A model generated the notes under the pieces. It saw nothing but the letters and a program-made list of their open reading frames with translations. It searched no databases and had not been told where the DNA came from. 64,000 bases of DNA from Labilithrix sp. (GTDB taxonomy: Bacteria; Myxococcota_A; Polyangia; Polyangiales; Polyangiaceae): the NCBI GenBank assembly GCA_019637105.1, contig JAHBWF010000011.1:1-64000 (forward strand), read 5' to 3'. Made by a program: the position numbers and the translations under genes. This document shows positions 4,423-54,245 of this stretch, one piece after another. How positions within the stretch are numbered: position 1 is the first letter of the stretch; the number at the start of each line of letters is the position of its first letter.

Positions 4423-4497
4423 CCCGCGAACTGCTAGCCTCGAAGGCGCCGCGCGGAAAGCGTCTTCGACCACCTCGCGCGCGTGCAGGAGCCCGTC

Positions 4498-40643: not shown

Positions 40644-40756
40644 GGTGATCCGGATCCTAGTACCTCGACCGCGGTGGGGCCGAAGAACCGGCGTCCGGAC
40701 GCTCGTCCGGCCCCCGGGGCTTGCGCGGCGGCCCGAGGGGAGTTAGTAACTCACGC

Positions 40757-41737: not shown

Positions 41738-41798
41738 ACCGAGCAGCGTAACTCGCCCGGCGAAACGAGACCTAAATTCTAGCGCGTGATGCGCTTCG

Positions 41799-41885
41799 TG
41801 GATCGGGAGGGAATTGAACCCCCATCGTCATCGAAAGATCCTGTTTTACAGACAGGCGCGGCCAACCGATATCCGCCTCCGATCC
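41799..41885 (-). tRNA. tRNA-Tyr(GTA)
   Basis: Acceptor GGATCGG/CCGATCC, anticodon loop CTGTAAA on a 5-bp stem, long variable arm as expected for bacterial Tyr, T-loop TTCAATT. D-loop has GG. Tail after A73 is not CCA. Last tRNA of the array in transcription order. Confidence 0.93.
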
Positions 41886-41894
41886 GGAGCGACA

Positions 41895-41906
41895 CTTGGC
41901 GCCAAG
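41895..41906. repeat. Palindrome CTTGGCGCCAAG, copy 1
   Basis: Perfect 12-bp palindrome 9 bp upstream of the tRNA-Tyr 5' end. The same 12-mer recurs at 48111-48122 near the other end of the array. Could be an operator or a recombination mark. Confidence 0.6.
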
Positions 41907-41938
41907 AGATATGTCCTCATGGAGTGTTTTTTTTCGGG

Positions 41939-42022
41939 CGGAAGCCAGGCGACTCGAACACCATACCTCGCGGTACGCACCGGGTAGCGGCCGGGCCCGC
42001 GACCTTTCGCGGTTTGGCTTCC
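41939..42022 (-). tRNA. Selenocysteine-like (allo-type) tRNA, apparent anticodon GCT (Ser)
   Basis: 8-bp acceptor GGAAGCCA/TGGCTTCC with G73, 6-bp D stem CCGCGA/TCGCGG closing a 4-nt loop, V-arm stem about 5 bp with GCGA loop, and T stem reduced to 4 bp (8/4 branch). These are tRNA-Sec or allo-tRNA features. The anticodon loop reads CCGCTAC, giving GCT with C33, so it should read Ser AGC/AGU rather than UGA. First anticodon-stem pair is mismatched. Confidence 0.75.
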
Positions 42023-42083
42023 ATAAGCGAGGCGCGCGTCCTCGCCTCGTCGTGTCGCGTCCGCCCGCAGGGGCGGCGCGCGG

Positions 42084-42157
42084 TGCCGACGGGGGGATTC
42101 GCACCCCCAACTCGCCGGGTTTGAAGCGGCTGCCTCTGCTGGTTGGGCCACGTCGGC
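42084..42157 (-). tRNA. tRNA-Leu(CAA), class I shape
   Basis: Acceptor GCCGACG/CGTCGGC, A73, loop TTCAAAC (CAA) with a C31-C39 mismatch. The variable loop is only 5 nt, unlike normal class II Leu. T-loop TGCGAAT has G55; D-loop AACCAGCAGA has A18G19. Followed by CCG. Confidence 0.75.
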
Positions 42158-42264
42158 AGATCTCCATCGCGCGCCGCTCCGGCGTCGCCGCTCCGGCGCG
42201 CGCGGAGCGGCGGGCGGTCGGGGCGGCGGGCGCGCCGTCGGATCGCGGCGAGCTCGAGACGAGG

Positions 42265-42338
42265 TGCGGGGCGAGAGGATCGAACTCTCCTGATCCTGCG
42301 TGTGAGACAGGCGTCATCACCAGATGAGCGGGCCCCGC
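42265..42338 (-). tRNA. tRNA-Val(CAC)
   Basis: Acceptor GCGGGGC/GCCCCGC, A73, anticodon arm CCTGT-CTCACAC-GCAGG, T-loop TTCGATC, D-loop with GG. Canonical elbow. Confidence 0.92.
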
Positions 42339-42416
42339 TCGGGGAGCGGCACGTGCTGCGTCGATGCGAAACACCACACCGATCCGAGCGCCGGCGCGGG
42401 GCGCGGGCTCGATCGG

Positions 42417-42488
42417 CTCCGGAGGAGGGAGTTGCACCCCCACCCCGACGGTTCAAAGCCGTGGATCCTGCTGTTGGAACACTCCGGA
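42417..42488 (-). tRNA. tRNA-Gln(TTG)
   Basis: Acceptor TCCGGAG/CTCCGGA, G73, loop CTTTGAA, T-loop TGCAACT with G55 and D-loop AACAGCA with A18. Followed by CCG. First anticodon-stem pair mismatched. Confidence 0.82.
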
Positions 42489-42492
42489 TCGG

Positions 42493-42561
42493 TCGCCACG
42501 GGCGGAGTCGAACCGCCGGGGCCGCGCTTATGAGACGCGCCCTCCTCCGAGGATCGCAGCG
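42493..42561 (-). tRNA. tRNA-Met(CAT), truncated D-loop
   Basis: Acceptor CGCTGCG/CGTGGCG with two wobble pairs, A73, loop CTCATAA, T-loop TTCGACT. D arm CCTC-GGAG-GAGG has a 4-nt loop. No initiator features (three G-C anticodon-stem pairs, open 1-72 pair). Could be elongator Met or Ile2. Followed by CCG. Confidence 0.75.
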
Positions 42562-42596
42562 AAGATCGGGCTCGCGAGGGCGAGCTTGCGCGTCGG

Positions 42597-42667
42597 AGCG
42601 GTGACCGAGAATCGCACTCGGATCTCGAGCGTGGCGGGCTCGGGTTCTACTCTTGAACTACCACCGC
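42597..42667 (-). tRNA. tRNA-Gly(GCC)
   Basis: Acceptor GCGGTGG/TCACCGC, T73, anticodon arm CGAGC-CCGCCAC-GCTCG with C33, D arm GTTC-AAGAGTA-GAAC (A18), T-loop TGCGATT (G55). Followed by CCG. Confidence 0.85.
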
Positions 42668-42741
42668 GAAGTCGGGCCCTCGCGGGCCGGGGACGCCGCG
42701 CCGCGGGCGAAGGCATCCACCTTCACGCGGGCGCGGTCGTT

Positions 42742-42818
42742 TGGAGCCACCCGAGGGACTTGCACCCTCCTCGTTCCTCGTTACCAGTGAGGTGCCCCGC
42801 TGTCTGGGCGTGGGCGGC
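42742..42818 (-). tRNA. tRNA-Thr(GGT), CCA encoded
   Basis: Acceptor GCCGCCC/GGGTGGC, T73, loop CTGGTAA, T-loop TGCAAGT (G55), D-loop AGACAGCG (A18). One of four array tRNAs with an encoded CCA. Confidence 0.83.
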
Positions 42819-42971
42819 GAGACGGGCTCGGAGCTCGCGCGCCGAGCCCGGCGACGAGACGTGACGCGGGATGGTTTCGTTCGGCGTCGTGTTCTCCTCT
42901 CCGAGCAGAGTGGTGGTCGAGCCGGACGCGCGTGCTCGCGCGCGAGGGCTCGGGTGCGTGACGTGGACGCG

Positions 42972-43048
42972 TGGCGTTCCCGACGGGATTCGAACCCGTG
43001 TCGCTGGGTTGAGGGCCCAGGGTCCTTGGCCGTCTAGACGACGGGAAC
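42972..43048 (-). tRNA. tRNA-Glu(CTC), CCA encoded
   Basis: Acceptor GTTCCCG/CGGGAAC, G73, anticodon arm CTGGG-CCCTCAA-CCCAG with C33, canonical D-loop GG and T-loop TTCGAAT, encoded CCA. Confidence 0.92.
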
Positions 43049-43092
43049 GGAGGGCCGACGGCGCGCGCCGGGAGCGCGCCCGCCGTCGGCGG

Positions 43093-43164
43093 GTGCAGCG
43101 ACTGGAGTCGCACCAGCGTCTCGAGCTCATGAGGCTCGCGGGGTACTGCTCCCCCACGCTGCAC
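43093..43164 (-). tRNA. tRNA-Met(CAT), second copy
   Basis: Acceptor TGCAGCG/CGCTGCA, extendable to 8 bp, anticodon arm CGAGC-CTCATGA-GCTCG, D arm GGGG-AGCAGTA-CCCC (A18), T-loop TGCGACT (G55). Followed by CCG. Elongator Met or Ile2. Confidence 0.85.
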
Positions 43165-43202
43165 GAGGGTGATGCGCGACGACGACGAGCGATCCTCGCC
43201 GG

Positions 43203-43273
43203 CACCTCCGCCGGGAGTCGAACCCGGGGCGCGAGCTTCGGAGGCTCGCTCCTGATTCCGTCAGGACGAAGGT
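43203..43273 (-). tRNA. tRNA-Arg(CCG)
   Basis: Acceptor ACCTTCG/CGGAGGT, G73, anticodon arm CGAGC-CTCCGAA-GCTCG, 5-nt D-loop CGGAA, T-loop TTCGACT. Followed by CCG. Only 6 bp from the next tRNA. Confidence 0.88.
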
Positions 43274-43279
43274 AGTCGG

Positions 43280-43350
43280 TCTCCTCGCTAGGAATCGAAC
43301 CTAGACAACTGGCTTCGTAGACCAATGCGTGGTGCCACCACGACGAGGAG
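43280..43350 (-). tRNA. tRNA-Arg(ACG)
   Basis: Acceptor CTCCTCG/CGAGGAG, A73, loop CTACGAA, T-loop TTCGATT, short D-loop TGGCA. A34 would need TadA editing to inosine. Followed by CCG. Confidence 0.88.
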
Positions 43351-43365
43351 ATAGGGCGTGTCAAA

Positions 43366-43396
43366 GGCGCAACTCGGTTGCGCCGATCCCGAGTGG
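43366..43396. repeat. REP-like hairpin element, copy 1
   Basis: Perfect 8-bp stem GGCGCAAC/GTTGCGCC with TCG loop, then GATCCCGAG. Related copies at 47436-47467 and 57618-57647. Extragenic, between tRNA genes. Confidence 0.65.
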
Positions 43397-43459
43397 GCAT
43401 CGGCACGAGCGAACGCGCCGGGCGAGGACGAGGCGGCCGTGTCGGAGGAAGCATGTCGG

Positions 43460-43545
43460 AGGAAGAAAGAGGTCTCGAACCCCACACCCTTCCGAGGTGC
43501 GCTTTGCTTTCGAGGCAAGCCCGGCTCCCAGCCGGTTTTTCTTCC
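43460..43545 (-). tRNA. tRNA-Ser(CGA)
   Basis: Class II. Acceptor GGAAGAA/TTCTTCC, loop CTCGAAA, long V-arm with CACC/GGGTG, T-loop TTCGAGA. T73 is unusual for Ser (normally G). Followed by CCG. Confidence 0.85.
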
Positions 43546-43576
43546 GCGCGGCGTCGCGCGCGCGACGTCGTCTCGG

Positions 43577-43649
43577 TGGTCGGTGAGGGAATCGAACCCC
43601 CTACGCAGAGCTTTTCAAACTCCCGCTCTACCGATCGAGCTTACCGACC
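43577..43649 (-). tRNA. tRNA-Phe(GAA)
   Basis: Acceptor GGTCGGT/ACCGACC, A73, loop TTGAAAA, D arm GCTC-GATCGGTA-GAGC, T-loop TTCGATT. Followed by CCG. Confidence 0.94.
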
Positions 43650-43675
43650 ATGATTCGGATACGATTCGGACACGG

Positions 43676-43761
43676 AGGAAGGCAGAGGACTCGAACCTCA
43701 CGCGGACGCGCCGCGCGAATCGCGTTCCAGGCGATCTCCGCGCCTCGCGGATTTGCCTTCC
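43676..43761 (-). tRNA. tRNA-Ser(GGA)
   Basis: Class II. Acceptor GGAAGGC/GCCTTCC, anticodon arm ATCGC-CTGGAAC-GCGAT, GC-rich V-arm, T-loop TTCGAGT, T73. Followed by CCG. Confidence 0.9.
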
Positions 43762-43780
43762 ACGTCGGAACGACGTTCGG

Positions 43781-43855
43781 TCAGGACGGCAGGACTCGAA
43801 CCTGCGGTCTCCAGCCCCCCAGGCTGGCGCTTTCGCCGGACTAAGCTACGCCCTG
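43781..43855 (-). tRNA. tRNA-Pro(GGG)
   Basis: Acceptor CAGGGCG/CGTCCTG, A73, anticodon arm CCAGC-CTGGGGG-GCTGG, D-loop with CCGG, T-loop TTCGAGT. Followed by CCG. Next gene upstream on the strand is the HNH endonuclease. Confidence 0.93.
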
Positions 43856-44077
43856 AGACGCCAGGCGATCCCGGCGATGCTTGCCGCGGCGGCGAGCGCC
43901 GCGGCCGAAGACGAACCTCGCTCGCCGCGCGAGCGGCGAGGAGGAACGGACGATAGGTGGTCCAGTTTCGCGTCATGGACCAGGACGCGGGAGTCTCGCC
44001 GCGAGCTCGCCGCCGGCGGTGCCGTCACGGCCCCCCCGCTCGACGCGGTCGTCGCCGTCGAACGAGCGGCGAGCGCC

Positions 44078-44611
44078 TCAGGCGGAGAGCGGCGCCGACG
44101 CAGCGCAGCCGTCGCAGTACGGCTGCCAGACGTCGGGCAGCTCACCCTCGTCGAGGCGGAGCGGCGGCACGACCGGCAGGGACGCCGGCTTCTTCGGCTG
44201 CCGCAGCAGCTTCATGCCGGCCTGCTCGGGCGTGCGGCTCCCTTTGCGATCGTTGCACGCGTAGCAGGAGGTGACGATGTTCTCCCAAACGGTCTTTCCT
44301 CCCTGCACGCGCGGGATGACGTGGTCGTAGTTCAGCTGCCGGATGGGCTTCTTGTCGCCGCAGTATTGGCAGCGGAACTTGTCGCGCGTGAACACGTTCA
44401 CGCGGGAGAAGCGGACCGACTGCTTCGTCGACACCGACCCCTTCTTCAGCCGAACGACGGCGGGCGCGAGCATCGCGACGCTCGGGGCGCGGAGCTCCGC
44501 GTCCCAGGTCTCGATGACCTCGACCTTGCCGAGCCAGGTCAGGACGACGGCGCGCTGCCACGAGATGATCTTGTGGGGCGCCATCCAAGGGGTCAGCATC
44601 AGCGTTTGCAT
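44078..44611 (-). CDS. HNH endonuclease inside the tRNA array
   Basis: 177 aa, ATG with ribosome site GAAGGTGA. The C-terminal half holds an HNH domain with zinc cysteines: FRCQYCGDKKPIRQLNYDHVI (zinc CxxC and catalytic His) and WENIVTSCYACNDRKGSR. The N-terminal half (LTPWMAPHKIISWQRAVVL) is shared by a chromosomal HNH family found in many bacteria, so it need not be a homing enzyme. It is the only protein gene in the array and shares its direction; a role in array mobility is possible but unproven. Confidence 0.9.
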   Translation of the reverse strand: MQTLMLTPWMAPHKIISWQRAVVLTWLGKVEVIETWDAELRAPSVAMLAPAVVRLKKGSVSTKQSVRFSRVNVFTRDKFRCQYCGDKKPIRQLNYDHVIPRVQGGKTVWENIVTSCYACNDRKGSRTPEQAGMKLLRQPKKPASLPVVPPLRLDEGELPDVWQPYCDGCAASAPLSA

Positions 44612-44740
44612 GGGTCACCTTCTCTTTCTCTTCTTCACGGCTCATCTCCTCTCGGAGGGTGGGACGACGGCGCGTGGAGGCGCGCCGACGGGAGCTATTG
44701 GGGAGTAGACGAGGGCGACCGGCACCCCGGACGTGCGCGC

Positions 44741-44828
44741 TGGTGTCACCGGAGGGACTCGAACCCTCACACTCACGATGGAGCCCAGCACCTCAAGCTG
44801 GCGTGTATTCCAATTCCACCACGGTGAC
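44741..44828 (-). tRNA. tRNA-Leu(GAG), CCA encoded
   Basis: Class II. Acceptor GTCACCG/CGGTGAC, A73, anticodon arm CCAGC-TTGAGGT-GCTGG, V-arm 16 nt, T-loop TTCGAGT, encoded CCA. Confidence 0.94.
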
Positions 44829-44924
44829 GTATCGACGTCCTCGTCGCTCTCGGTCGAGCGCCCTCGTCGCCGTCGGGATCGACGGCGGCGCGCGCGTAGG
44901 CGCTCAGGCGAGTCTGGACGTCGG

Positions 44925-45002
44925 TGCCGACGGAGGGATTCGAACCCTCACGAACACACAGCTTCTGAGGCTGCGGCCTCTACCGGGTTGGGCCACGTCG
45001 GC
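44925..45002 (-). tRNA. tRNA-Leu(CAG), short variable loop
   Basis: Acceptor GCCGACG/CGTCGGC, identical to that of tRNA-Leu(CAA); arm GCAGC-CTCAGAA-GCTGT; variable loop about 8 nt without a stem. D-loop with GG, T-loop TTCGAAT. Followed by CCG. Confidence 0.86.
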
Positions 45003-45031
45003 GTGAGGCGGCTCGCGAGAGAGCCGCGCGG

Positions 45032-45106
45032 TCTGTGCAGGAGGATTCGAACCTCCAATCCCTCCGACCCGAACGGAGTGCTCTAGCCAGGTTGAGCCAT
45101 GCACAG
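45032..45106 (-). tRNA. tRNA-Pro(CGG)
   Basis: Acceptor CTGTGCA/TGCACAG, A73, anticodon arm CTCCG-TTCGGGT-CGGAG, D-loop AACCTGGCTA, T-loop TTCGAAT. Followed by CCG. Confidence 0.93.
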
Positions 45107-45153
45107 GAAAGGACGGGCGGCGGGCCCGAGCTCGGGCCCGCGGCGCGTCGCGG

Positions 45154-45222
45154 TGGACGAGTCGGGAGTCGCACCCGATCCATCTGCTTGCAAGGCAGAC
45201 GTCTTCCCTCGAAGACAAGCCC
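45154..45222 (-). tRNA. tRNA-Ala(TGC), divergent
   Basis: Anticodon arm TCTGC-CTTGCAA-GCAGA. Acceptor GGGCTTG/CTCGTCC keeps the G3-U70 alanine identity pair but has two mismatches (5-68, 6-67). D stem up to 6 bp (GTCTTC/GAAGAC) with GAGG loop, T-loop TGCGACT (G55). Followed by CCG. Confidence 0.75.
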
Positions 45223-45308
45223 GTAAGGACGTCGCTCTCGTGACGTCCGAGGTCGGTCGCCGCGTGGAGCGTGAGCGACGATCGCGGGTCGAGCGCGGTC
45301 TCGACCGG

Positions 45309-45381
45309 TGCGGCGCGCAGGGATCGCACCTGCCTCCTCCTGCTCGTCGTGCAGGCGCAGTCGCTAGACTGCCAGCGCCGC
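45309..45381 (-). tRNA. tRNA-Val(GAC)
   Basis: Acceptor GCGGCGC/GCGCCGC, A73, anticodon arm CCTGC-ACGACGA-GCAGG with C33, D-loop TCTAGCGA (A18), T-loop TGCGATC (G55). Followed by CCG. Confidence 0.85.
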
Positions 45382-45398
45382 GCGCTGTTCGCGTGTCG

Positions 45399-45471
45399 TG
45401 GATCACCTGCGAATCGAACGCAGTGCAGGCTCCGTATCAGAGAGCCCAGGGTGACCAACCCGTCGTGATCC
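45399..45471 (-). tRNA. tRNA-Ile(GAT)
   Basis: Acceptor GGATCAC/GTGATCC, A73, anticodon arm GCTCT-CTGATAC-GGAGC, D-loop with TTGG, T-loop TTCGATT. Confidence 0.9.
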
Positions 45472-45542
45472 GAGTCGTGTGAAGAGCGGCGAGTCGCGTG
45501 AAGAGCGGCGGGTGGCCGAGCGGCCGCCCGGGTCTCGGACGA

Positions 45543-45614
45543 TGGAGAGCCGAGAGGGAGTCGAACCCTCGCGCGCCGTGTTGCAGACGGCGATCCTCGC
45601 CGGAGAATCGGCTC
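45543..45614 (-). tRNA. tRNA-Cys(GCA), CCA encoded
   Basis: Acceptor GAGCCGA/TCGGCTC, T73 (Cys identity), anticodon arm GCCGT-CTGCAAC-ACGGC, T-loop TTCGACT, encoded CCA. Confidence 0.92.
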
Positions 45615-45717
45615 GCGTCGTGGCGCCTCACCGCGCCACGGTGGAGGTGAGAGAGCGGGCGCAGGTTCCCTGTAACGGCCGACGCACGTGAACGCGTCGG
45701 AGGTCGGGGCTGCGCGG

Positions 45718-45788
45718 AGCGGGCAGAGGGAGTCGCACCCTCATTTTCAGTTTGGAAGACTGCGGTCCTGCTGTTGGACGATGCCCGC
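45718..45788 (-). tRNA. tRNA-Gly(TCC)
   Basis: Acceptor GCGGGCA/TGCCCGC, T73, loop CTTCCAA, D arm GTCC-AACAGCA-GGAC (A18), T-loop TGCGACT (G55). Followed by CCG. Confidence 0.88.
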
Positions 45789-45796
45789 GTAGAGGG

Positions 45797-45869
45797 TGGA
45801 ACCGGCCGGACTCGCACCGGCAACCTCCTCGATGCCGTCGAGGCGCTCTCCTCGCTGAGCTACGGTCCC
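45797..45869 (-). tRNA. tRNA-Ala(GGC)
   Basis: Acceptor GGGACCG/CGGTTCC with G3-U70, A73, anticodon arm CCTCG-ACGGCAT-CGAGG with C33, D-loop AGCGAGGA (A18), T-loop TGCGAGT (G55). Followed by CCC. Confidence 0.87.
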
Positions 45870-45902
45870 TTTTCGTTGCGTGTGTTCGTGTCCTGTCCTG
45901 GG

Positions 45903-45973
45903 TGGAGCGACGGGGAATCGCACCCCGATCCCTGCAGTGCGAGTGCAGCGTTCTCCTGTTGAACTATCGCCCC
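45903..45973 (-). tRNA. tRNA-Ala(CGC)
   Basis: Acceptor GGGGCGA/TCGCTCC with G3-U70, A73, anticodon arm CTGCA-CTCGCAC-TGCAG, D-loop AACAGGA (A18), T-loop TGCGATT (G55). Followed by CCC. Confidence 0.9.
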
Positions 45974-46037
45974 AGGCGTTCGTTCGACGACGCCCTCGTG
46001 ACGCGCGAGGCTGCGCGGCGCCGGTGACGTCGCGCGG

Positions 46038-46108
46038 CAGGCCGCGGAGGAATCGAACCCCCTCTCCGGGTTTTGGAGGCCCGGCCGGTCACCATGACTC
46101 TGCGGCCC
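46038..46108 (-). tRNA. tRNA-Trp(CCA)
   Basis: Acceptor GGGCCGC/GCGGCCT, G73 (Trp identity), loop CTCCAAA, T-loop TTCGATT, short D-loop. Followed by CCG. Confidence 0.85.
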
Positions 46109-46162
46109 GTGCGGGCGCGCGGGCCGCCCCCGACGCTCGAGGGCCGTCGAACGCGGCCCCGG

Positions 46163-46234
46163 CGCCTCGTACGGGAATCGAACCCGTCTCACTCCATAGA
46201 CAGTGGAGCTGCGACGCCAGTCGCATCACGAGGC
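46163..46234 (-). tRNA. tRNA-Asp(GTC)
   Basis: Acceptor GCCTCGT/ACGAGGC, G73, anticodon arm CTCCA-CTGTCTA-TGGAG, T-loop TTCGATT, D-loop CTGGCG. Followed by CCG. Confidence 0.92.
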
Positions 46235-46258
46235 ACGTCGTGTCGTCGATCGCGGTCG

Positions 46259-46331
46259 AGTCCTCGGCAGGAGTCGAACCTGCGTTCACCCGGTTTAGAA
46301 GACCGGCGCCTCTCCGTTCGGCCACGAGGAC
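46259..46331 (-). tRNA. tRNA-Arg(TCT)
   Basis: Acceptor GTCCTCG/CGAGGAC, anticodon arm CCGGT-CTTCTAA-ACCGG, T-loop TTCGACT. Near-identical body to the next tRNA, so the pair arose by duplication. Confidence 0.92.
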
Positions 46332-46391
46332 GCGGGCGGCGTCGGCCGACGCGAAGCCCGCGGCGGACGCGACCGTCCGTCGACCCCGCGG

Positions 46392-46464
46392 CGTCCTCGG
46401 CAGGAGTCGAACCTGCGTCGAACCGGCTTAGGAGGCCGGCGCCTCTCCGCTCGGCCACGAGGAC
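46392..46464 (-). tRNA. tRNA-Arg(CCT)
   Basis: Acceptor GTCCTCG/CGAGGAC, G73, anticodon arm CCGGC-CTCCTAA-GCCGG, T-loop TTCGACT. Paralogue of the tRNA-Arg(TCT) gene. Followed by CCG. Confidence 0.93.
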
Positions 46465-46513
46465 GAAAGCGCGTCCGCGCGCCCGGGCGAGAGAAGGCGA
46501 ACCGCGCGATCGG

Positions 46514-46586
46514 GGTAGCGTACGGGGATCGCACCCGCCTCCACTGAGTCACAATCAGCCCTCGTCACTAGACGAGCAACGCTACC
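46514..46586 (-). tRNA. tRNA-His(GTG)
   Basis: Acceptor GTAGCGT/ACGCTAC with G-1 and C73 (His identity), loop TTGTGAC, D-loop TCTAGTGA (A18), T-loop TGCGATC (G55). Followed by CCG. A good promoter lies directly upstream. Confidence 0.9.
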
Positions 46587-46591
46587 ATGAT

Positions 46592-46619
46592 ATTGTGTGC
46601 ATAATGCACTCTTTGTCAA
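46592..46619 (-). promoter_or_regulatory. Sigma70-type promoter with palindrome before tRNA-His
   Basis: On the minus strand: perfect -35 TTGACA, 16-bp spacer, -10 CACAAT; predicted start falls at the tRNA-His 5' end. The spacer overlaps the perfect inverted repeat GTGCAT-T-ATGCAC (46597-46609), a possible operator. Local AT content is far above the surroundings. Confidence 0.65.
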
Positions 46620-46660
46620 CTGCCTGTCGGGCGATTTTGGGCCCGACGTCCGTGTGGCGG

Positions 46661-46732
46661 CACTCCCGATCGGAATCGAACCGATACCTTCCGCTTGAAA
46701 GGCGGAGATCCTGACCACTAGATGACGGGAGC
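46661..46732 (-). tRNA. tRNA-Glu(TTC)
   Basis: Acceptor GCTCCCG/CGGGAGT, G73, anticodon arm TCCGC-CTTTCAA-GCGGA, canonical D-loop GG and T-loop TTCGATT. Followed by CCG. Confidence 0.93.
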
Positions 46733-46740
46733 GAGAGAGG

Positions 46741-46877
46741 TTCGTCCGAGTGTGAAGGCCGTGTCTTTCGACGGCTGACTGGCCGGTGTCTTTCCAGTTG
46801 ACTACGCTGACGATTCGTCAGCGGTTGGATTCGAACCAACATACCCATTGCGTGTTGGGCCTACGCGGTCGGACGAA
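46741..46877 (-). tRNA. Circularly permuted tRNA, unit A (anticodon unclear)
   Basis: Minus-strand order: clamp TTCGTCCG, T arm GTTGG-TTCGAAT-CCAAC (46824-46840), 3' acceptor CGCTGAC, a 5-nt loop GAATC, 5' acceptor GTCAGCG (46805-46811), TA, D arm with AACTGGAA, anticodon region, clamp CGGACGAA. The two acceptor strands are perfectly complementary but in reversed gene order. Outer clamp 8 bp, then a 3x3 internal loop, then a second helix of 7/9 pairs. The anticodon arm has only 4 good pairs, so this copy may be decaying. Confidence 0.7.
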
Positions 46878-46998
46878 GAGAGCGGCATCGCGAGGGAGGA
46901 GACGCCGGGAGCGGTCGCGCGTGCGCGGGCTCGCTCGCGGCTCTCGCGAGGCCGAGGTCCGTCGATCGGTGCGTGAATCGACGTGACCCGAAAGGGGC

Positions 46999-47202
46999 CA
47001 TCGCCCGAGTGAGGAAACCAGGTGCGTTTTCGTTCCGTAGACGAATGCCTTGTCCACTAGGCTACTGGCACGTGAGCTCGAGGGCTCGGCGAGCGAGCGC
47101 TCGGGCGGAGCGCGCGCAGCCGGGGCTGCGCGGCGCTCGGGGTGCCAGGTTGGATTCGAACCAACGTAGGTTTGCGTGTAGGGTCTCTTCGAGCGGGCGA
47201 TG
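46999..47202 (-). tRNA. Circularly permuted tRNA, unit B (anticodon ACG)
   Basis: Minus-strand order: clamp, conserved CTACACGCA, T arm GTTGG-TTCGAAT-CCAAC (47149-47165), 3' acceptor CTGGCAC, C73 and CCG, about 70 nt spacer, 5' acceptor GTGCCAG (47065-47071), TA, D arm GCCT-AGTGGACA-AGGC, anticodon arm TTCGT-CTACGGA-ACGAA, clamp. Acceptor strands pair 7/7. Clamp CATCGCCCG/CGGGCGATG is 9 bp and differs from units A and D by compensating changes. Apparent Arg tRNA. Confidence 0.75.
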
Positions 47203-47381
47203 AGCATCGTGTCGCGCCGTGGTCGGCGCAGAGCGTGAGCGGGACGCGCTCGAGCGATCGTCGAGGCGCGTCGGGCGGGAGAGGTAGCGCCGGGTCAGGC
47301 GGGGCCTGCCCGGCGTGGAGCTCGCGGTGAGCTCGGCGAGCGGGCGCGTCGAGGCGCGACGCGTCGCTGCGGGAGTGTTCC

Positions 47382-47593
47382 TTCGTCCGAGTGGAGGAGC
47401 CGGTCGTCTTCTCAGGACGAGGCCTCACCGATGAAGGCGCGGCTCGGTTTGCGCCGATCCTGAGTGGCGTTGGGCTGCGCCGATCGCTGCGTGAGGACGT
47501 CGGCGGGCGGGGTGCGTCAGGCTGGAGAGCCGCCAGCGCGGCGAGTCCGAACCACCATCTCGCGTGGCGAGTCGACGTCTCCAGGCGGGGGAA
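47382..47593 (-). tRNA. Circularly permuted tRNA-like unit C (anticodon GAG), degenerate
   Basis: Same order as units A, B and D. The 5' half has anticodon arm TCGTC-CTGAGAA-GACGA (47404-47420), D arm, and acceptor GAGCCGC; upstream lies T arm GGTGG-TTCGGAC-TCGCC (47540-47556) and GCGGCTC. Clamp pairs 6/8 and second helix 6/9. Six extra bases separate T arm and acceptor, and a REP-like element overlaps the 5' acceptor, so this copy is probably non-functional or mis-assigned in part. Confidence 0.45.
47436..47467. repeat. REP-like hairpin element, copy 2
   Basis: GGCGCGGCTCGGTTTGCGCC then GATCCTGAG, closely related to copy 1. A more diverged copy follows at 47466-47494. Overlaps the presumed 5' acceptor of permuted unit C. 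Confidence 0.6.
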
Positions 47594-47625
47594 GGCGGGC
47601 GCTCGGCCGATCGAGCTGCGTGGGC
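47594..47625 (-). pseudogene. Tandem duplicate of the 5' half of tRNA-Thr(CGT)
   Basis: 32 bp matching the 5' acceptor, D arm and first anticodon-stem bases of the adjacent tRNA-Thr at 30 of 32 positions. It starts 6 nt after that tRNA's 3' acceptor, and its GCCCACG pairs perfectly with that acceptor's CGTGGGC. The T-arm/3'-acceptor plus this half therefore has the permuted order. Confidence 0.75.
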
Positions 47626-47630
47626 GAGGG

Positions 47631-47702
47631 AGCCCACGTCCGGAATCGAACCGGATCCTCCCGAGTACGAGGCGGGCGCTCGGCCAATCGAGCTGCGCGG
47701 GC
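47631..47702 (-). tRNA. tRNA-Thr(CGT)
   Basis: Acceptor GCCCGCG/CGTGGGC with one G-T pair, loop CTCGTAC, D arm GCTC-GATTGGCC-GAGC, T-loop TTCGATT, T73. Followed by CCC and then a second copy of its own 5' half. Confidence 0.88.
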
Positions 47703-47785
47703 AGGGTGCTCGCGGTGCGCGCGTCTCGCCCGCTGCGCGAGGCAGAGAGCGAGACGCGCGCCGGCGCGAGCAGAGTGAGAAGGTG

Positions 47786-47933
47786 TTCGTCCGAGTGAAG
47801 AAGCCGTTGCGATGTGCTCGTGCTTGAAACGAGTGCCTTTACCGTTTGGCTAGCGGCCCGGCCTTGCGGCGTGTGGGCCACGTTGGAGTCGAACCAACAT
47901 GGGGTGCGTGTAGGGACTCTTCGGGCGGACGAA
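47786..47933 (-). tRNA. Circularly permuted tRNA, unit D (anticodon CAA, Leu)
   Basis: Minus-strand order: clamp TTCGTCCG, second helix, conserved CTACACGCA, T arm GTTGG-TTCGACT-CCAAC (47882-47898), 3' acceptor GTGGCCC with A73, 14-nt spacer, 5' acceptor GGGCCGC (47853-47859), TA, D arm GCC-AAACGGTAAA-GGC, anticodon arm CTCGT-TTCAAGC-ACGAG (47817-47833), second helix, clamp CGGACGAA. Acceptor pairs 7/7 with one wobble; clamp 8/8; second helix 8/9. The clamp sits where the long variable arm of a Leu tRNA would be. Confidence 0.78.
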
Positions 47934-47937
47934 GGAG

Positions 47938-48009
47938 CTCCAGCGGAAGGAATCGAACCTTCGAAGGGCCGGTTAACAGCCGGCGGCCTGACCATTCGGC
48001 TTCGCTGGA
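47938..48009 (-). tRNA. tRNA-Asn(GTT)
   Basis: Acceptor TCCAGCG/CGCTGGA, G73, anticodon arm GCCGG-CTGTTAA-CCGGC, T-loop TTCGATT. Its 3' end is 5 bp from permuted unit D. Confidence 0.93.
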
Positions 48010-48110
48010 ATGTGCGCTCGCCGCGTACGCACGTGCTGCTGCCGTCTCGCCGCGTCCGATCTCTTGCGAGGCGGAACGACGAAGCGGTCAGCGCGGGCGT
48101 ACGCGACGAG

Positions 48111-48122
48111 CCTTGGCGCCAA
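48111..48122. repeat. Palindrome CTTGGCGCCAAG, copy 2
   Basis: Same perfect 12-bp palindrome as at 41895-41906. Here it lies between tRNA-Gln(CTG) and tRNA-Asn. Confidence 0.6.
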
Positions 48123-48163
48123 GTTGTCAGAGAGCGAGGGCCCTTCGTGCGAGGGGCCGACAG

Positions 48164-48235
48164 TTCCGGGCACAGGATTCGAACCTGTCTTTCTGGGTTC
48201 AGAGGCCAGCGTCCTGCCAGCTAGACGATCCCGGA
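48164..48235 (-). tRNA. tRNA-Gln(CTG)
   Basis: Acceptor TCCGGGA/GCCCGGA (one mismatch), A73, loop CTCTGAA, D arm GTCT-AGCTGGCA-GGAC, T-loop TTCGAAT. Confidence 0.9.
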
Positions 48236-48302
48236 GCAGGAGGACGGCGTGGCGAGCGCGAGCGCGCGCACGTCGTCGAGGCCGCGTCGTGAGACGCGGC
48301 GG

Positions 48303-48375
48303 TAGGTCCGGAGGGGATCGAACCCTCACCTTCCCGGGTAAGAGCCGGGTACGCTTCCAGTTGCGTTACGGACCC
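48303..48375 (-). tRNA. tRNA-Lys(CTT)
   Basis: Acceptor GGGTCCG/CGGACCT, A73, anticodon arm CCCGG-CTCTTAC-CCGGG, D arm ACGC-AACTGGAA-GCGT, T-loop TTCGATC. Followed by CCG. Confidence 0.93.
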
Positions 48376-48507
48376 GCGTGGAGGCCGCTTCACCGTCCGT
48401 GCTCGGGCCCGATCGAGCGAGTCGGTCGAGCGGAGGAGCGAACGTCGAGCGGGAGGCGAGCTGTTCGAGCGGGACGCGGGCGAGTCGACCTCGACCGCGC
48501 GGCTCGG

Positions 48508-48580
48508 TGGGACGCGAGGGAGTCGAACCCTCATCCCTCGGCTTAAAAGGCCGGTGCTCGACCGATTGAGCTAGCGCCCC
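48508..48580 (-). tRNA. tRNA-Lys(TTT), first gene of the array
   Basis: Acceptor GGGGCGC/GCGTCCC, A73, loop CTTTTAA, D arm GCTC-AATCGGTC-GAGC, T-loop TTCGACT. Followed by CCG. An AT-rich stretch lies upstream. Confidence 0.93.
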
Positions 48581-48937
48581 GGCCGTGGTGGCCGACTTTG
48601 TAACCATTGAAAAATGAAGTATTGCCCTAGATACCGAGCTTAAGAAACATGATTGATTCTCCCCAAGAAATTCGATTGAAAGCACGGCTTTCGTGCCGCG
48701 CTGCAGCGTCGGTGCGGGGAGGTGAGCCGCATGTGGGCCGGCTTGGCGGATCGGGACCCGACGTCCCTGCTCGAGCTCCCGCCGAGCGGCGGGCCCCTCG
48801 AGCTCCGTCCCCGGCGATGCCGGCCAGGCGGGCCGGACCTGTCGCGGGAGAGCCGAGACCCAAATGACGAAGGCCACCTCGGGGGAACCCCGGGCGGCCT
48901 CGACGAACGGCTCCGATGGAGACGATGTGAGGGACCG
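48581..48937. other. AT-rich leader upstream of the tRNA array
   Basis: Bases 48591-48690 have about 40 percent GC by direct count, far below the surroundings, and lie just upstream of the first array tRNA. This is the likely promoter region of the array; TACAAA 20 bp before tRNA-Lys could be a -10, with no clear -35. The rest shows no convincing gene. Confidence 0.5.
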
Positions 48938-49258
48938 CTAGGGGTCGGCCTCCTCCGGCTTGGTGCTCGGATCGAACGGGGAGGAGGCAGTGAACATGCG
49001 GCTCTCGGTCTGCTGGAGACCGACAAGACCGCCGAAGACGAAGAGGGCGCCCTGGCTCGCGCTCGGGCGCGCAAAGGAGCTCGAGCGGTTCAGGCCAGCG
49101 ATTCGCCCGCCGTAAGCGAGCGAACGCCGCGCGCGATGCAACCGCGCCTCGGACGCGCGACACGCCGCGCCGTTGCGCCAAGGCGCCGCGACCGTCGTTG
49201 TCTTTTCGTCGAGGGAGAGGATCACGCGGAACGTGCACGCCCGGGGGCTCCGGGACAT
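48938..49258 (-). CDS. Possible short hypothetical protein
   Basis: About 106 aa with fairly high G/C third positions and a hydrophobic stretch GALFVFGGLVGLQQ near the C-terminus (ending FDPSTKPEEADP). No family recognised and the ribosome site is poor; it may be the remnant of a membrane or exported protein. Weak call. Confidence 0.35.
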   Translation of the reverse strand: MSRSPRACTFRVILSLDEKTTTVAAPWRNGAACRASEARLHRARRSLAYGGRIAGLNRSSSFARPSASQGALFVFGGLVGLQQTESRMFTASSPFDPSTKPEEADP

Positions 49259-49660
49259 GCCTCCATGGGAGGTCGTTGTTCGTAGACGTTCCCGACAGGA
49301 ACGCCATTCAAGGAATAGCTCGCGGACTGCACCCGCGCAAGTATTTAAATCAAAATGGCGTCGAATCGCGCCCGGACGAAGAACAGAGAACAAACGCGGT
49401 TCTTTGGATCAACCACCGTCGCGGCCGTCGAGCTCGTCGGATGGAGGGCTCCGCGCCGTCGAGCGCGACCGCCGCGACGAGCGCTCCGCCGCCGCGGTGC
49501 TCCGCGGCGCGCTGCTCGCCGAGGGTGACCCGGCGGCGCCTTGTCTGGTTCCCCCGGCCCTCGGGCCGGCACGAGGTGGCCCGGGCCAGGGCCGCGCCGC
49601 GCCAACCTGCGGGAATCACGAACGCCTGCTCGTGGCACGTGCATCGCAGCTCGGCTCGTC

Positions 49661-51217
49661 ATGCTGGCGATTGCGCAGAGCGCGGTCCTCGTCGGGATCG
49701 CGTCGTTCCCCGTTCGTGTCGAGGTCCAGGCCGAGCGCGGGATCCCGACGTTCGAGCTCGTCGGCCTCGCGGAGGCCGCCGTCCGCGAGAGCCGCGTCCG
49801 GGTGAAGAGCGCGCTCGCCGGCGTCGGCGTCGACATCAGCGAGTGTCGCGTCACGGTCAACCTCGCCCCCGCCGACGTGAAGAAGAGCGGCAGCTCGTTC
49901 GACCTCGCGATCGCGCTCGGGACGCTGGTCGCGCTCGGGGTGATCCCGGAGGAGTCGATCGCGAACGTCCTGTTGCTCGGCGAGCTCTCGCTCAACGGCG
50001 GGACGCAGAGCCTGCGGGGCGTCGTCGCGCACCTGCTCGGCGCCAAGGAGCGCGGCGTCGTCCGCGCGATCGTGCCGCGGGCGAACGAGCGCGAGGCGGC
50101 GCTGGTCGACGGCGTCGAGGTCGAGCTCGCATCGACGCTCGGGGAGATCGTCGACGCCCTCCGGGGCGCGGCGGCGCTCGGCCGGCCGCGGGCGCAGGAG
50201 GCGGCGCCGACGACGCCTCCGATCGACGACCTCGCGGACGTTCGCGGTCAGCACGGCGCGCGGCGCGCGCTCGAGATCGCCGCCAGCGGCGCGCACAACC
50301 TCCTCATGGTCGGTCCGCCGGGCGCCGGGAAGACGATGCTCGCGCGGCGGCTCGCCGGGATCCTCCCGCGCCTGTCGCGCGAGGAGGCGCTCGAGGTGCT
50401 CGCGATCCACGGCGTCGCAGGCCTCCTCTCGGCGTCGTCGAGCCTCGCCGTCGAGCGTCCCTTTCGTGCTCCGCATCACACGGCGAGCGACGTGGCGCTC
50501 GTCGGCGGGGGGGAGCACTCGCGCCCCGGCGAGGTGAGCCTCGCGCATCACGGCGTGCTCTTCCTCGACGAGCTCAGCGAGCTCCGGAGAACCGCGCTCG
50601 AGGCGCTCCGCCAGCCGCTCGAGGACGGCTTCGTCACCGTCTGCCGGATGCGCCTGACAGTGACGTTCCCCGCGCGGCCGATGCTCGTGGGCGCGACGAA
50701 CCCGTGCGCCTGCGGGAACTACGGTGACGGGACGAACCGCTGCGGATGCAGCCCGGAGGCGGTCCGCCAATACCGCCGGCGGCTCAGCGGCCCGCTGCTC
50801 GATCGGCTGGATCTGCACGTCACGTTGCCGCGCGTCGACCTGCTCGAGCTCCAGTCCGCGTCCGGCGGAGAGTCGAGCGCGATCGTCCGCGCCCGCGTCG
50901 AGCGCGCGCGCGCCGTGCAACGCGCGCGCTATCGCGCGGGCGAGGTCTCGGCGCAGGCGAACGCGCACCTCTCGCAGCGGGACGTCGAGCGCGTCTGCAA
51001 GCTCGAGACGAAGGGGAAGGAGGTGCTCGCGCAGGCCGTCGAGCGACGCGGCCTCTCCGCGCGGGCGTACGGCAAGGTGCTCCGCCTCGCGCGGACGATC
51101 GCCGACATGGACGGCGCGCCGGCGATCGGCGCGAGGCACGTGACCGAGGCTGTGCTCGGCCGCGTCCTCGATCGCGATCCGACGAACGGTCGCCCACGGG
51201 CCGAGACGGCCGCCTGA
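49661..51217 (+). CDS. comM: ComM/YifB-family AAA+ Mg-chelatase-like helicase
   Basis: 518 aa. N-terminal Lon-protease-like fold ([19 protein letters not shown]), Walker [15 protein letters not shown], Walker [11 protein letters not shown], zinc loop [18 protein letters not shown], and C-terminal lid domain. ComM is a branch-migration helicase that extends integrated donor DNA in natural transformation. With the ComEA-like gene and recA nearby it hints at competence. Start at ATG 49661. Confidence 0.93.
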
Positions 51218-51326
51218 GCGGCGTGGGCGCGGCGGCGCGAGGAGTCGAGGGAAGTCCAGCGGAGGCGTCGCGATCGCCGGCGACGCGCTCCGAGAGGTGT
51301 CGTGGCGAGCGAAGGAGACAAGCAAG

Positions 51327-52355
51327 ATGCTCGAGCAGATCGCAGAGAAGATGAAGGTCCTCAAGGGGGTCGTGGTCTCGGTGGAGAAGCAGTTCGGCAA
51401 GGGCTCCATCATGTCGCTCGGCGACGAGGGCGCCCACGAGGCGGTCCCGACGATCCCGACGGGCTCGCTCGCGCTCGACCTCGCGACCGGCGTCGGCGGC
51501 TACCCGCGCGGCCGCGTCGTCGAGATCTACGGCCCGGAGTCGAGCGGGAAGACGACGCTCTCGCTGCACGCGATCGCCCAGGCGCAGCGCGGCGGCGGCG
51601 CGTGCGCGTTCATCGACGCCGAGCACGCGTTCGACGTCGCCTACGCGCGGTCGATCGGCGTCGAGACCGACAAGCTCCTCGTCTCGCAGCCGGACACGGG
51701 CGAGCAGGCGCTCGACATCGTCGACATCCTCGTCCGCTCGGGCGCGGTCGACCTCGTGGTCATCGACTCGGTCGCCGCGCTCGTGCCGCGCGCGGAGATC
51801 GAGGGGGAGATGGGCGACAGCCACATGGGCCTCCAGGCGCGGCTGATGAGCCAGGCGCTCCGCAAGCTGACGGCGATCGCGCACCGAACGAACACGACGA
51901 TCATGTTCATCAACCAGCTCAGGCAGAAGATCGGCGTCACGTTCGGGAACCCCGAGACGACGACGGGCGGCAACGCGCTCAAATTCTACGCGTCGATGCG
52001 CCTCGACGTCCGGCGGATCGGTCAGGTTAAGGTCGGCGACGAGCTCGTCGGCGGTCGGACGCGCGTGAAGCTCGCGAAGAACAAGCTCGCGCCGCCGTTC
52101 TGCGAGGCGGAGTTCGAGATCCGGTACGGGCGCGGGGTCGACGGGCTGAGCGAGCTCATCGATCTCGGGCTGGCGCGCGGGCTCGTCGAGAAGAACGGCA
52201 ACCACCTGGCGTTCGCGGGGACGACGCTGGGCAACGGCCGCGAGCGCTCGCGCGAGACGATCGGGGCGAGCGCCGAGCTCCAGACCACGCTGCGTCAGGC
52301 CATCCTCGCGTCCGGGCCGGTGCGGCCGGGTCGCCGCGCCGACGGCGACGCGTAG
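51327..52355 (+). CDS. recA: Recombinase RecA
   Basis: 342 aa from the ATG with GAAGGAGA upstream. Walker [10 protein letters not shown], Walker [12 protein letters not shown]1/L2 loops ([36 protein letters not shown]), [10 protein letters not shown]. The C-terminal tail is Arg-rich rather than strongly acidic as in E. coli. An earlier in-frame GTG at 51297 is less likely. Follows comM by 109 bp on the same strand; recX lies far away at 4 kb. Confidence 0.95.
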
Positions 52356-52384
52356 GGACCGCGCCCGCCGCCGGGGCGGGTGCG

Positions 52385-52414
52385 GCGCCCCGAGGGACGC
52401 GACCCTCGGGGCGC
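52385..52414 (+). terminator. Hairpin after recA
   Basis: Perfect 12-bp GC stem GCGCCCCGAGGG/CCCTCGGGGCGC with 6-nt loop, 30 bp after the recA stop. No T-run follows, so it may be a barrier or part of the larger fold that follows. Confidence 0.6.
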
Positions 52415-52415
52415 T

Positions 52416-52475
52416 GTCCGGGGCGAGGCGGCTCGTCGCCTCCGATCGCGGCGACGAGATCGCCTCGCCCCGGAC
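52416..52475. repeat. Long two-tier inverted repeat
   Basis: Outer 15-bp arms (52416-52430 with 52461-52475) enclose 9-bp inner arms CTCGTCGCC/GGCGACGAG and a 9-nt loop, almost fully paired over 60 bp and directly next to the previous hairpin. Confidence 0.7.
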
Positions 52476-52485
52476 GAGCCGCGAG

Positions 52486-52521
52486 AAAAAAGAAGCCCCT
52501 CCGGGGGGAGCCGGGAGGGGC
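52486..52521 (-). terminator. Rho-independent terminator for the phospholipase gene
   Basis: On the minus strand: 8-bp stem GCCCCTCC/GGAGGGGC followed by TTCTTTTTT. It lies downstream of the minus-strand phospholipase D-like gene. Confidence 0.75.
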
Positions 52522-52540
52522 GGAGCCGAGCGCACGCGGA

Positions 52541-52745
52541 GTGGGAGGGAGGAGGAGGAGGAGAGCTCCGTCGTACGTCAGCGAAGTCGGGGAAAATGCG
52601 CGTCGACGTCCGAGCGCGCGGCGAGGAGGCGGGAGGCGAGGAGGTGGCGGGAGGCGAAGAGGAAGAAGAGGAGGAGGGGTGCGAAGAGGAAGAGACGGAG
52701 GGATACGAAGAGACGGAGGGATGCGAAGAGACGGAGGACGCTGAC
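52541..52745. repeat. Purine-rich tract with 18-bp tandem repeats
   Basis: About 200 bp of strongly G/A-biased top strand between recA and the phospholipase gene. It includes three copies of GAAGAGACGGAGGGATAC (52689-52739). No gene fits here; the tract could form triplex or other non-B DNA. Confidence 0.7.
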
Positions 52746-52805
52746 GAGGCGGCGAGCGGGTGGGGGACGCGCTCGGCCGCGCCACGCGGCGAGGTGGAGC
52801 GCGGG

Positions 52806-54245
52806 TCACTGGGTCGGAGGGCGGACGTTGGTCGTGGGGAGATCCGCCTGGGCCGTGCCGAGCGCGAAGAGGTGCTCCTGCTGCGCCTTCATCGCCTCGA
52901 CCACGTGCGGGATCGTGATGAGGTAGAAGTTCTCGAAGTTGTCCGTGAACGCCGTCCCCGTGAAGTTGCCGGCGCCCGTGAAGACGCTGTCGCCTTGCGG
53001 GGTCTCGAAGACGATGAACTTGTTGTGGTGGAGGTAGCCGCTGCCCTGGTTGGTCTCCAGGTACCGGACGTCGACGCCGGCCGCGGCGAGCGGCTGGACG
53101 ATCGCGAACTCCGCGGGCGTGTTCGGGACGTTCTCGGCGCCCTGACCGGCCCACCAGAGATCGTCGTCGACGATGAGCTTCACCTCGGGCGGGGTCGGGC
53201 TCGCGAGGCGCGCCTCGAGCTCGGTGCGGAGGAGACGGTACGAGAAGCGATGCGCGTTGATGCCGATGAACGACGCCCGGCGGACGCCGCTCTGGATCTC
53301 CTTGCCGGCGCGTCCGCCGTCGCCGGGGACGAAGAACGTCTTGACGTCGGACTCCTCGCCGACACCGGCGTCGTCGCGGCACGCCTTGATGTACGTCGAG
53401 TACTCCTTCTTGGTTCGGTAGTGCTCGAGCATGCCGTCCATCAGACAGACGTGCGCCTTCGCGAAGTGCGTGCGCGCCGGGGCGCGGATGAAGTGCCAGT
53501 TCTCGTGATGGAGGACGACGCCGGACGTCAGGTTCCCGCTCGAGAAGACGATCCGCGGCGCCTCGGACCGCGGGTTGATCATGAAGACCTTGTTGTGCGC
53601 GTAGCCGATCGTCGCGTCGTGGCCGCGGAGCTCGAGCCGCGGCGCGAAGCTCGGATCGCCGTTGCCCGGCTGGCACGCGAGCACCTGGTTGGCCGTCGAG
53701 AGATCGGTCTCGCGATCGAGCACCATCGTGATCTTCACGTTGCGCTCGGTCACGGCCTTGCAGAGCTCGGCGGAGACCACCTTGTTCGAGAACGAGAGGT
53801 ACGTGAAGAAGATCTCCTTCGTCTCCGGATCCGCGATCCAGTCGACGAGCTTCTTCTGCGGTGACGAGTCCCGCGCGCCCGACGCGGCGGCGTCGGACGG
53901 AGCGCAGAAGACGTTCTCGGGCTTGTGGGTCAGGCGCGCGCCCGCGTTCGAGAAGACCTCCTGGTCTTCGTCGTACGCGTACTTCTTGCAGATCGGGTTC
54001 GTGAAGAGGACCGTGTACTCGTCGAAGGCGAGCTTCGGGCCCGTGCCGAACTCCTGGACGTCGCCTTCGATCGCGTCGTCGCCCGCGCGTGCGACGTCGT
54101 CCGCGCACGCGACGAGCCCCGCGCACGCGACGAGGGTGACGGACAACGACAGTGAAGCTCGGAGGAACGAGGTGGCGCGCAAGGGATCTCCGGACGGTGA
54201 CCCGCCGGCGAGCGCCGGCGGGGCGTGTGGCTCGAATGCATACAT
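52806..54245 (-). CDS. Phospholipase D-like lipoprotein
   Basis: 479 aa. Signal region with lipobox LVAC. Two PLD half-sites: YAHNKVFMINPRS with following SSGN, and LHHNKFIVFETPQ with following GAGN (HxK then GN, the HKD superfamily signature). Members cut phosphodiesters in lipids or nucleic acids. Cell-envelope location suggests lipid or extracellular DNA targets. Confidence 0.88.
   Translation of the reverse strand: MYAFEPHAPPALAGGSPSGDPLRATSFLRASLSLSVTLVACAGLVACADDVARAGDDAIEGDVQEFGTGPKLAFDEYTVLFTNPICKKYAYDEDQEVFSNAGARLTHKPENVFCAPSDAAASGARDSSPQKKLVDWIADPETKEIFFTYLSFSNKVVSAELCKAVTERNVKITMVLDRETDLSTANQVLACQPGNGDPSFAPRLELRGHDATIGYAHNKVFMINPRSEAPRIVFSSGNLTSGVVLHHENWHFIRAPARTHFAKAHVCLMDGMLEHYRTKKEYSTYIKACRDDAGVGEESDVKTFFVPGDGGRAGKEIQSGVRRASFIGINAHRFSYRLLRTELEARLASPTPPEVKLIVDDDLWWAGQGAENVPNTPAEFAIVQPLAAAGVDVRYLETNQGSGYLHHNKFIVFETPQGDSVFTGAGNFTGTAFTDNFENFYLITIPHVVEAMKAQQEHLFALGTAQADLPTTNVRPPTQ

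Follow-up and report, generated by a model that had tools for sequence, protein, structure and literature searches.

Are the three unusual loci in a bacterial tRNA array circularly permuted tRNA genes? The loci, here designated A, B and C, lie between positions 46741 and 47933 of the window, the whole 64,000-nucleotide (nt) stretch analysed from Labilithrix sp. (assembly GCA_019637105.1, contig JAHBWF010000011.1). An initial annotation reported that a T arm and 3' acceptor strand precede the 5' acceptor strand, D arm and anticodon arm at each locus, and interpreted the loci as permuted tRNA genes. The rotated order stood, and it is conserved in relatives; the tRNA-gene interpretation was not supported. 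The three loci very probably encode Y-RNA-like scaffold RNAs, not tRNAs, that work with a Ro60-like protein.

All three loci are read on the minus strand in the order stem strand, T arm, 3' acceptor, loop, 5' acceptor, D arm, anticodon arm and stem strand. RNA A (46741-46877) has an outer stem formed by P1 (46870-46877/46741-46748) and P2 (46858-46866/46752-46760), a T arm at 46824-46840, acceptor strands at 46817-46823 and 46805-46811 separated by a 5-nt loop, a D arm at 46788-46802 and a short anticodon arm at 46772-46785 with a 6-nt loop. In RNA B, which spans 47000-47201, P1 (47194-47201/47000-47007) and P2 (47182-47190/47011-47019) enclose a T arm (47149-47165), acceptor strands (47142-47148 and 47065-47071) with a 70-nt spacer, a D arm (47047-47062) and an anticodon arm (47029-47045) with the loop triplet ACG. 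RNA C (47786-47933) consists of P1 (47926-47933/47786-47793), P2 (47914-47922/47797-47805), a T arm (47882-47898), acceptor strands (47875-47881 and 47853-47859) with a 15-nt spacer, a D arm (47835-47850) and an anticodon arm (47817-47833) with the loop triplet CAA.

The acceptor strands pair in 7 of 7 positions at each locus, with a single U-G pair at C. In the three-row alignment of the loci (A2), six of the seven acceptor pairs vary on both sides, as do 12 of all 37 pairs, compared with a shuffle mean of 4.4. The outer stem of each locus comprises P1 of 8 bp, a 3x3 internal loop and P2 of 9 bp with mismatches. The P1 strands of A and C are TTCGTCCG/CGGACGAA, B carries a compensated variant, and a conserved CWACACGCA follows P2 at each locus. 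The outer stem and the 6-nt anticodon loop of A are additions to the initial annotation. Locus A also has an additional hairpin resembling a long variable arm. Because its anticodon loop has 6 nt, locus A is not a standard tRNA even when rotated; ARAGORN calls the rotated sequence tRNA-???. Folding of single sequences gave the layout under a closing stem for B and C, and A partly folded otherwise.

Standard tRNA searches did not recover the loci. ARAGORN found 32 tRNAs in the window, none of them at A, B or C. The Rfam tRNA model gave 24 matches above the gathering score in 40000-54000, with locus B reaching only 23.3 of 29 bits. The alignment A9 contains 76 copies (E<=1e-8) from 47 sources picked for earlier matches; it was aligned to the covariance model and is hence biased toward it. 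Standard pairs occupy 93.7% of its 2788 pair cells vs 68.8% in column shuffles, both-side changes occur in 32 of 37 pairs, and covariation is 0.653, whereas shuffles give 0.179 and slid versions no more than 0.118. In the outer stem, P1 is paired in 91.4% and P2 in 90.2% of cells, with both-side changes in each. When the copies were rotated, ARAGORN called a tRNA in 72 of 76; unrotated, in 0 of 76. Swapping the 3' halves between rows reduced the calls to 30, 25, 28, 24 and 26 of 76. Test and control alike used twelve variable-loop lengths per row, with four bases added.

The anticodon arm mostly keeps a tRNA-like loop. It has 7 nt in 66 of the 76 A9 copies, and among these 66, Y32 is present in 63, U33 in 51 and R37 in 60. 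These loops carry 32 different triplets, and the entropy is 1.09 at position 33 vs 1.87-1.93 at positions 34-36. A looser set of 100 rows, left from 146 (A3, A7) after removal of duplicates and of rows lacking a full permuted module, includes weak matches, some of which may be ordinary tRNAs; it gave 7-nt loops in 85 of 100, with Y32 in 78, U33 in 69 and R37 in 74 of the 85, and 34 triplets among the 69. In loops read by eye, the triplet at the place of B is ACG in the window, ATG in G097 and GTG with C33 in G073, and that at the place of C is CAA in the window and G092 and CGT in G097, with a 6-nt loop in G073. Such a pattern could reflect the capture of many tRNAs, a loop shape under selection, or the two together. 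Twelve matches were chosen by eye for lack of a clean permuted module and run through ARAGORN, which found a normal-order tRNA inside the same stem in 7 (L147 Arg, L145 Met, L138 unassigned, L141 Ser, L143 Ser, L122 Ile and L144 Arg) and none in the other 5. Short stems with no tRNA part at all occur at L116:3691-3774, L131:1268-1366 and L142:3236-3305.

The covariance model R1, built from A2, was used to determine the occurrence of the RNA; matches weaker than roughly E 1e-3 may be no more than neighbouring ordinary tRNAs and were not tallied as copies. In the own genome (G000), R1 found three copies, all in the window, and one chance-level match (E 5.75); the model R2 found the same three. 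Among 99 same-family genomes, G000 included, matches at E<=0.1 were present in 29, those at E<=1e-3 in 16 and those at E<=1e-6 in 15. With stricter filters, 6 of 282 genomes of a phylum sample had a match at E<=1e-3. Strong matches were found in 4 of 7 same-genus genomes (G000, G073, G092 and G097), where the copies lie between tRNA-Glu(ttc) and tRNA-Thr and between tRNA-Thr and tRNA-Asn. Since the copies occupy the same array places in these genomes, the RNA is inherited and not an assembly accident. Many myxobacterial genera, and also records with Verrucomicrobiales and Planctomycetota in their titles, show the same rotated order; given this conservation, the order is not due to chance either.

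In other genomes, one of the open reading frames adjoining the RNAs encodes a protein of 588 aa whose C-terminal domain is VWA. Of the 99 genomes, 16 have a full-length homologue of it (E<=1e-100) and 36 have a match at E<=1e-3, the remainder being VWA-only by match range. RNA (E<=1e-3) and protein are both present in 15 genomes, RNA only in 1, protein only in 1 and neither in 82 (p 1.2e-15, although the genomes are related and not independent, so that p values from them overstate the association, a point against our reading). The RNA-only genome is G066 (81% complete). The protein-only genome, G037, has a weak RNA match (E 0.03) about 79 bp upstream of the gene. In the phylum sample, 5 of 5 genomes with a close homologue (>1000 bits) have the RNA, and the 6 genomes with a distant homologue (~500-560 bits) gave one weak partial match, on another contig. 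The matches listed contain 79 named loci of the gene (Myxococcus, Corallococcus, Archangium, Pyxidicoccus, Labilithrix and others). These loci hold 98 RNA matches at E<=0.1 and 86 at E<=1e-3, all on the strand of the gene, and 96 of the 98 lie upstream of it, in 50 loci. L100, which represents the Myxococcus xanthus arrangement, has RNAs at 2820-2947 and 3690-3829 and the protein gene at 3974-5743.

The protein is likely a distant Ro60 homologue, as judged from its predicted structure. An AlphaFold2 model of the Myxococcus xanthus AM003 protein (A8, 20 sequences) reached a predicted local distance difference test score (pLDDT) of 80.7 and a predicted template modelling score (pTM) of 0.47. The predicted model has helical repeats followed by VWA. 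With this model, Foldseek ranked Ro60/TROVE entries 1 to 5, and among the best 50 rows of VIA-align, Ro60 entries alone span residues ~60 to 557. In a profile comparison with Rsr proteins, the last helical repeats and VWA were matched with E 2.1e-5 and probability 76.9. Among the matches listed, the nearest named relatives of the own Ro60-like protein are from Labilithrix metagenome-assembled genomes (95% identity), which makes Labilithrix or a near relative the probable host on protein evidence as well. In G000 the gene heads an operon on contig C223 (L169:6463-10756) that encodes the Ro60-like VWA protein, P312, a JAB protein (PF14464), a protein of ~80 aa and a ThiF protein (PF00899). We take the ~80-aa protein for a candidate ubiquitin-like protein by its sequence and its place in the operon. 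The same operon occurs in many Myxococcota records. Among 58 named loci with at least 3.9 kb downstream, P312 is present in 54, JAB in 50 and ThiF in 20, the last gene possibly lying beyond the downstream stretch. The AlphaFold model of P312 (L116:5756-6691) has a pLDDT of 90.4 and no clear PDB match; the protein shows a weak OB-fold and RWD/E2-like resemblance and one invariant Cys.

Taken as Y-RNA-like scaffolds, the RNAs would be built as follows. The transcript ends would pair to form the conserved double stem of P1 and P2, with the 3x3 internal loop between them. On top of this stem would stand a tRNA cloverleaf, entered at the variable loop and for that reason read rotated, with its acceptor end closed by a hairpin loop. 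The stem would be the binding site of the divergent Ro60-like protein from G000:C223, with its N-terminal helical repeats and C-terminal VWA domain, and the tRNA part may act as an effector module as in YrlA, plus an anticodon arm. Bacterial Y RNAs of the YrlA type are characterized by binding to Ro60 and to an effector such as PNPase, and by a TROVE (Rsr) gene nearby. The order, stems and conservation of the RNAs are observed; we infer their transcription, binding and function.

Several observations weigh against the scaffold reading. First, 29 of the 79 listed loci have no upstream R1 match; they include L155, L090-L094 (among those listed, the most like the own protein) and distant members, and R2 gave only weak additions there (L153, L161-L165) beside the two matches of L155. 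In the genus of the window, the RNAs lie in the tRNA array and the operon on another contig, so that the RNAs do not adjoin the protein gene; none was found around L073, L074, L075, L077 and L090-L094, and L167 has one weak stem-only match (E 0.095). In addition, Pfam TROVE gave no match in 5 of 5 Ro60-like proteins scanned (E<=1), with VWA families matching, and PDB sequence searches gave no Ro60 chain, one of them yielding three weak VWA-region matches and another six weak matches, mostly to VWA proteins. In VIA-align, ten VWA-domain rows stand above the first Ro60 row, within 0.6 Z; the fold match is partly to the common VWA domain, and TM-scores (0.36) are low, as is the pTM. Classical Rsr, detected by TROVE in 27 of the 99 genomes, does not track the RNA over them (2/14/25/58, p 0.22), and no Rsr was found in G000, whose assembly is 91.5% complete. 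The Rfam YrlA model (RF02553) scored 14.6 of 69 bits at locus C (E 1.3) and nothing at the three loci in other runs. Its 18.9-bit match at 47601-47655 is an ordinary tRNA-Thr plus a tRNA relic, and its best match in G000 (23.7 bits) lies elsewhere in the genome, none being over the cut-off. Finally, a plain scaffold would not need an anticodon loop that resembles tRNA so closely.

The last point leads back to the interpretation of the initial annotation. If these were true permuted tRNA genes, the cloverleaf would be severed from the transcript at its base and RtcB would ligate the ends; RNase P and RNase Z would open the acceptor loop, yielding a functional tRNA. The rotated cloverleaf, the 7-nt loops with U33 and R37 and the location in a tRNA array all agree with this, and of 16 genomes tested for the RtcB ligase, 15 have it, among them G000. 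However, we consider it very unlikely. The acceptor loop to be opened is at most 8 nt long in 56 of the 76 A9 copies, and an N-CCA continuation is present in 6 of 76. The outer stem, which would have to be removed before end ligation, is conserved and covaries over the 76 copies; P1 and P2 flank one 3x3 internal loop, and no bulge-helix-bulge was seen at the junction in the structure, without a separate motif search. Locus A has no 7-nt anticodon loop, and copies that share an array position differ in their triplet. Copies in other places sit upstream of a single protein gene, and the array already has normal-order Arg(acg) and Leu(caa) genes.

The position upstream of that gene would suit a leader that regulates the Ro60-like operon in cis by sensing tRNA or damage to it, in the manner of a T-box or an attenuator. 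In 47 of the 50 listed loci with an upstream match, the RNAs share the strand of the gene and precede it by 29-302 bp. A leader is nevertheless highly improbable, as up to seven copies stand in a row upstream of the gene (L141, L143), the two matches of the 98 that are not upstream lie between operon genes (Verrucomicrobiales record L155), and in the genus of the window the RNAs are in the tRNA array, on a contig other than that of the operon. That the loci are pseudogenes or rearranged relics of tandem tRNA genes is scarcely credible: the array does hold relics (a tRNA-Thr 5' half and remnant D, see below), but the compensatory changes over 76 copies, the same order in many myxobacterial genera and the Verrucomicrobiales and Planctomycetota records, and the fixed place upstream of one gene do not fit decay.

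For Y-RNA-like scaffolds working with a Ro60-like protein, we tentatively propose a role that is more likely wrong than right. The particle may be a surveillance ribonucleoprotein in which closed, unchargeable acceptors and exposed, changing anticodon loops attract anticodon nucleases (phage defence, toxins), acting as bait or decoy. Cleavage might be sensed via the Ro60-like protein and passed to the ubiquitin-like conjugation system (JAB, the ubiquitin-like protein, an E1 and P312 as a candidate E2-like protein). Across the copies, the triplet at 34-36 changes freely, but the shape of the loop is preserved.

The array hosting the loci (41798-48580, minus strand) contains 32 normal-order tRNA genes by ARAGORN and an HNH endonuclease gene at 44078-44611 on the same strand (PF14279 1.7e-16, PF01844 4.4e-16). 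Remnant D (47381-47425, minus strand) consists of an anticodon arm and a 3' stem strand like those of a fourth copy. Over 37 bases it is 84% identical to L049:11640-11804 (E 2.7e-5); inspection by eye showed no 5' stem strand to match, and R1 and R2 gave no match. At 47592-47625, the 5' half of a second tRNA-Thr stands right behind tRNA-Thr(cgt), where L049 and L051 have two whole tRNA-Thr. The stretch 42742-42822 has 95% identity to tRNA-Thr(ggt) of L050, with no ARAGORN call. It falls in the interval between tRNA-Gly(gcc) and tRNA-Glu(ctc) (42668-42971, minus strand), in which G073 and G097 have a TROVE (Rsr/Ro60) gene and the window has none; the flanks of the interval are partly conserved compared with the relatives. 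The gene of G073, inside its tRNA array, encodes a true Rsr (2.3e-18 to 2nvo), and its homologue in the array of G097 is 70% identical. Rsr/Ro60 genes were seen inside tRNA arrays at L049:4935-6491, L050:4178-5779 and L066:10021-11628. Near the last of these, in G059, is a YrlA-type RNA (L028:2859-2987, 57.1 bits) with an insertion resembling an anticodon arm 5' of the T arm, perhaps another rotation break point. The G059 array also has an ARAGORN tRNA with anticodon CTA, labelled Pyl (L066:12655-12748).

If the scaffold reading is true, Y-type RNAs can carry a whole tRNA cloverleaf, including the anticodon arm, and can do so in either rotated or normal order. An RNA that mimics tRNA and a Ro60-like protein would then be linked to a ubiquitin-like system of bacteria, in myxobacteria amenable to laboratory culture. 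The apparent first bacterial permuted tRNA genes would be accounted for without new tRNA processing. A covariance model is now at hand for such loci, which were missed here by ARAGORN and by the Rfam tRNA and YrlA models.

How do these RNAs compare with known systems? Circularly permuted tRNA genes are described from algae and an archaeon (PMC3978253, PMC3218864). The initial annotation knew of no bacterial case, and the titles and abstract openings of the literature matches listed likewise name neither a bacterial permuted tRNA gene nor a myxobacterial Y RNA with an anticodon arm. The RNAs share with the algal and archaeal genes the tRNA 3' part upstream of the 5' part. They differ in that the junction shows no bulge-helix-bulge and the acceptor loop is mostly short, and in being bacterial, with a conserved outer double stem and an associated protein. 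Two-piece (permuted) tmRNA, named in PMC3978253, is likewise a bacterial permuted tRNA-like RNA; in contrast, the RNAs here have an anticodon arm and gave no tmRNA match (ARAGORN on the window and Rfam searches). The partner resembles the Ro60/Rsr proteins (2nvo, 2i91, 9l5y) in its predicted fold of helical repeats plus VWA, and differs from them in its lack of a Pfam TROVE match and its weak profile similarity.

The closest comparison is with YrlA, which in an excerpt of PMC8394870 has a stem from both ends and a domain like the D, T and acceptor arms. The Rfam consensus places a T arm, an acceptor hairpin and a D arm on a basal stem, without an anticodon arm. As in YrlA, the RNAs described here have a basal stem of both ends with an internal loop (P1/P2) and a tRNA-like module ordered T arm, acceptor hairpin and D arm; their partner has a Ro60-like predicted fold, and short stem-only copies stand beside full ones. 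Because they fail the Rfam model, we call them Y-RNA-like and do not file them as YrlA. Unlike YrlA, they have an anticodon arm with a tRNA-like loop between the D arm and the stem; their stem sequence differs, and their predicted partner, a divergent Ro60-like protein, shares its operon with a candidate ubiquitin-like system. Their copies here lie inside a tRNA array, and some relatives hold a normal-order tRNA in the same stem.
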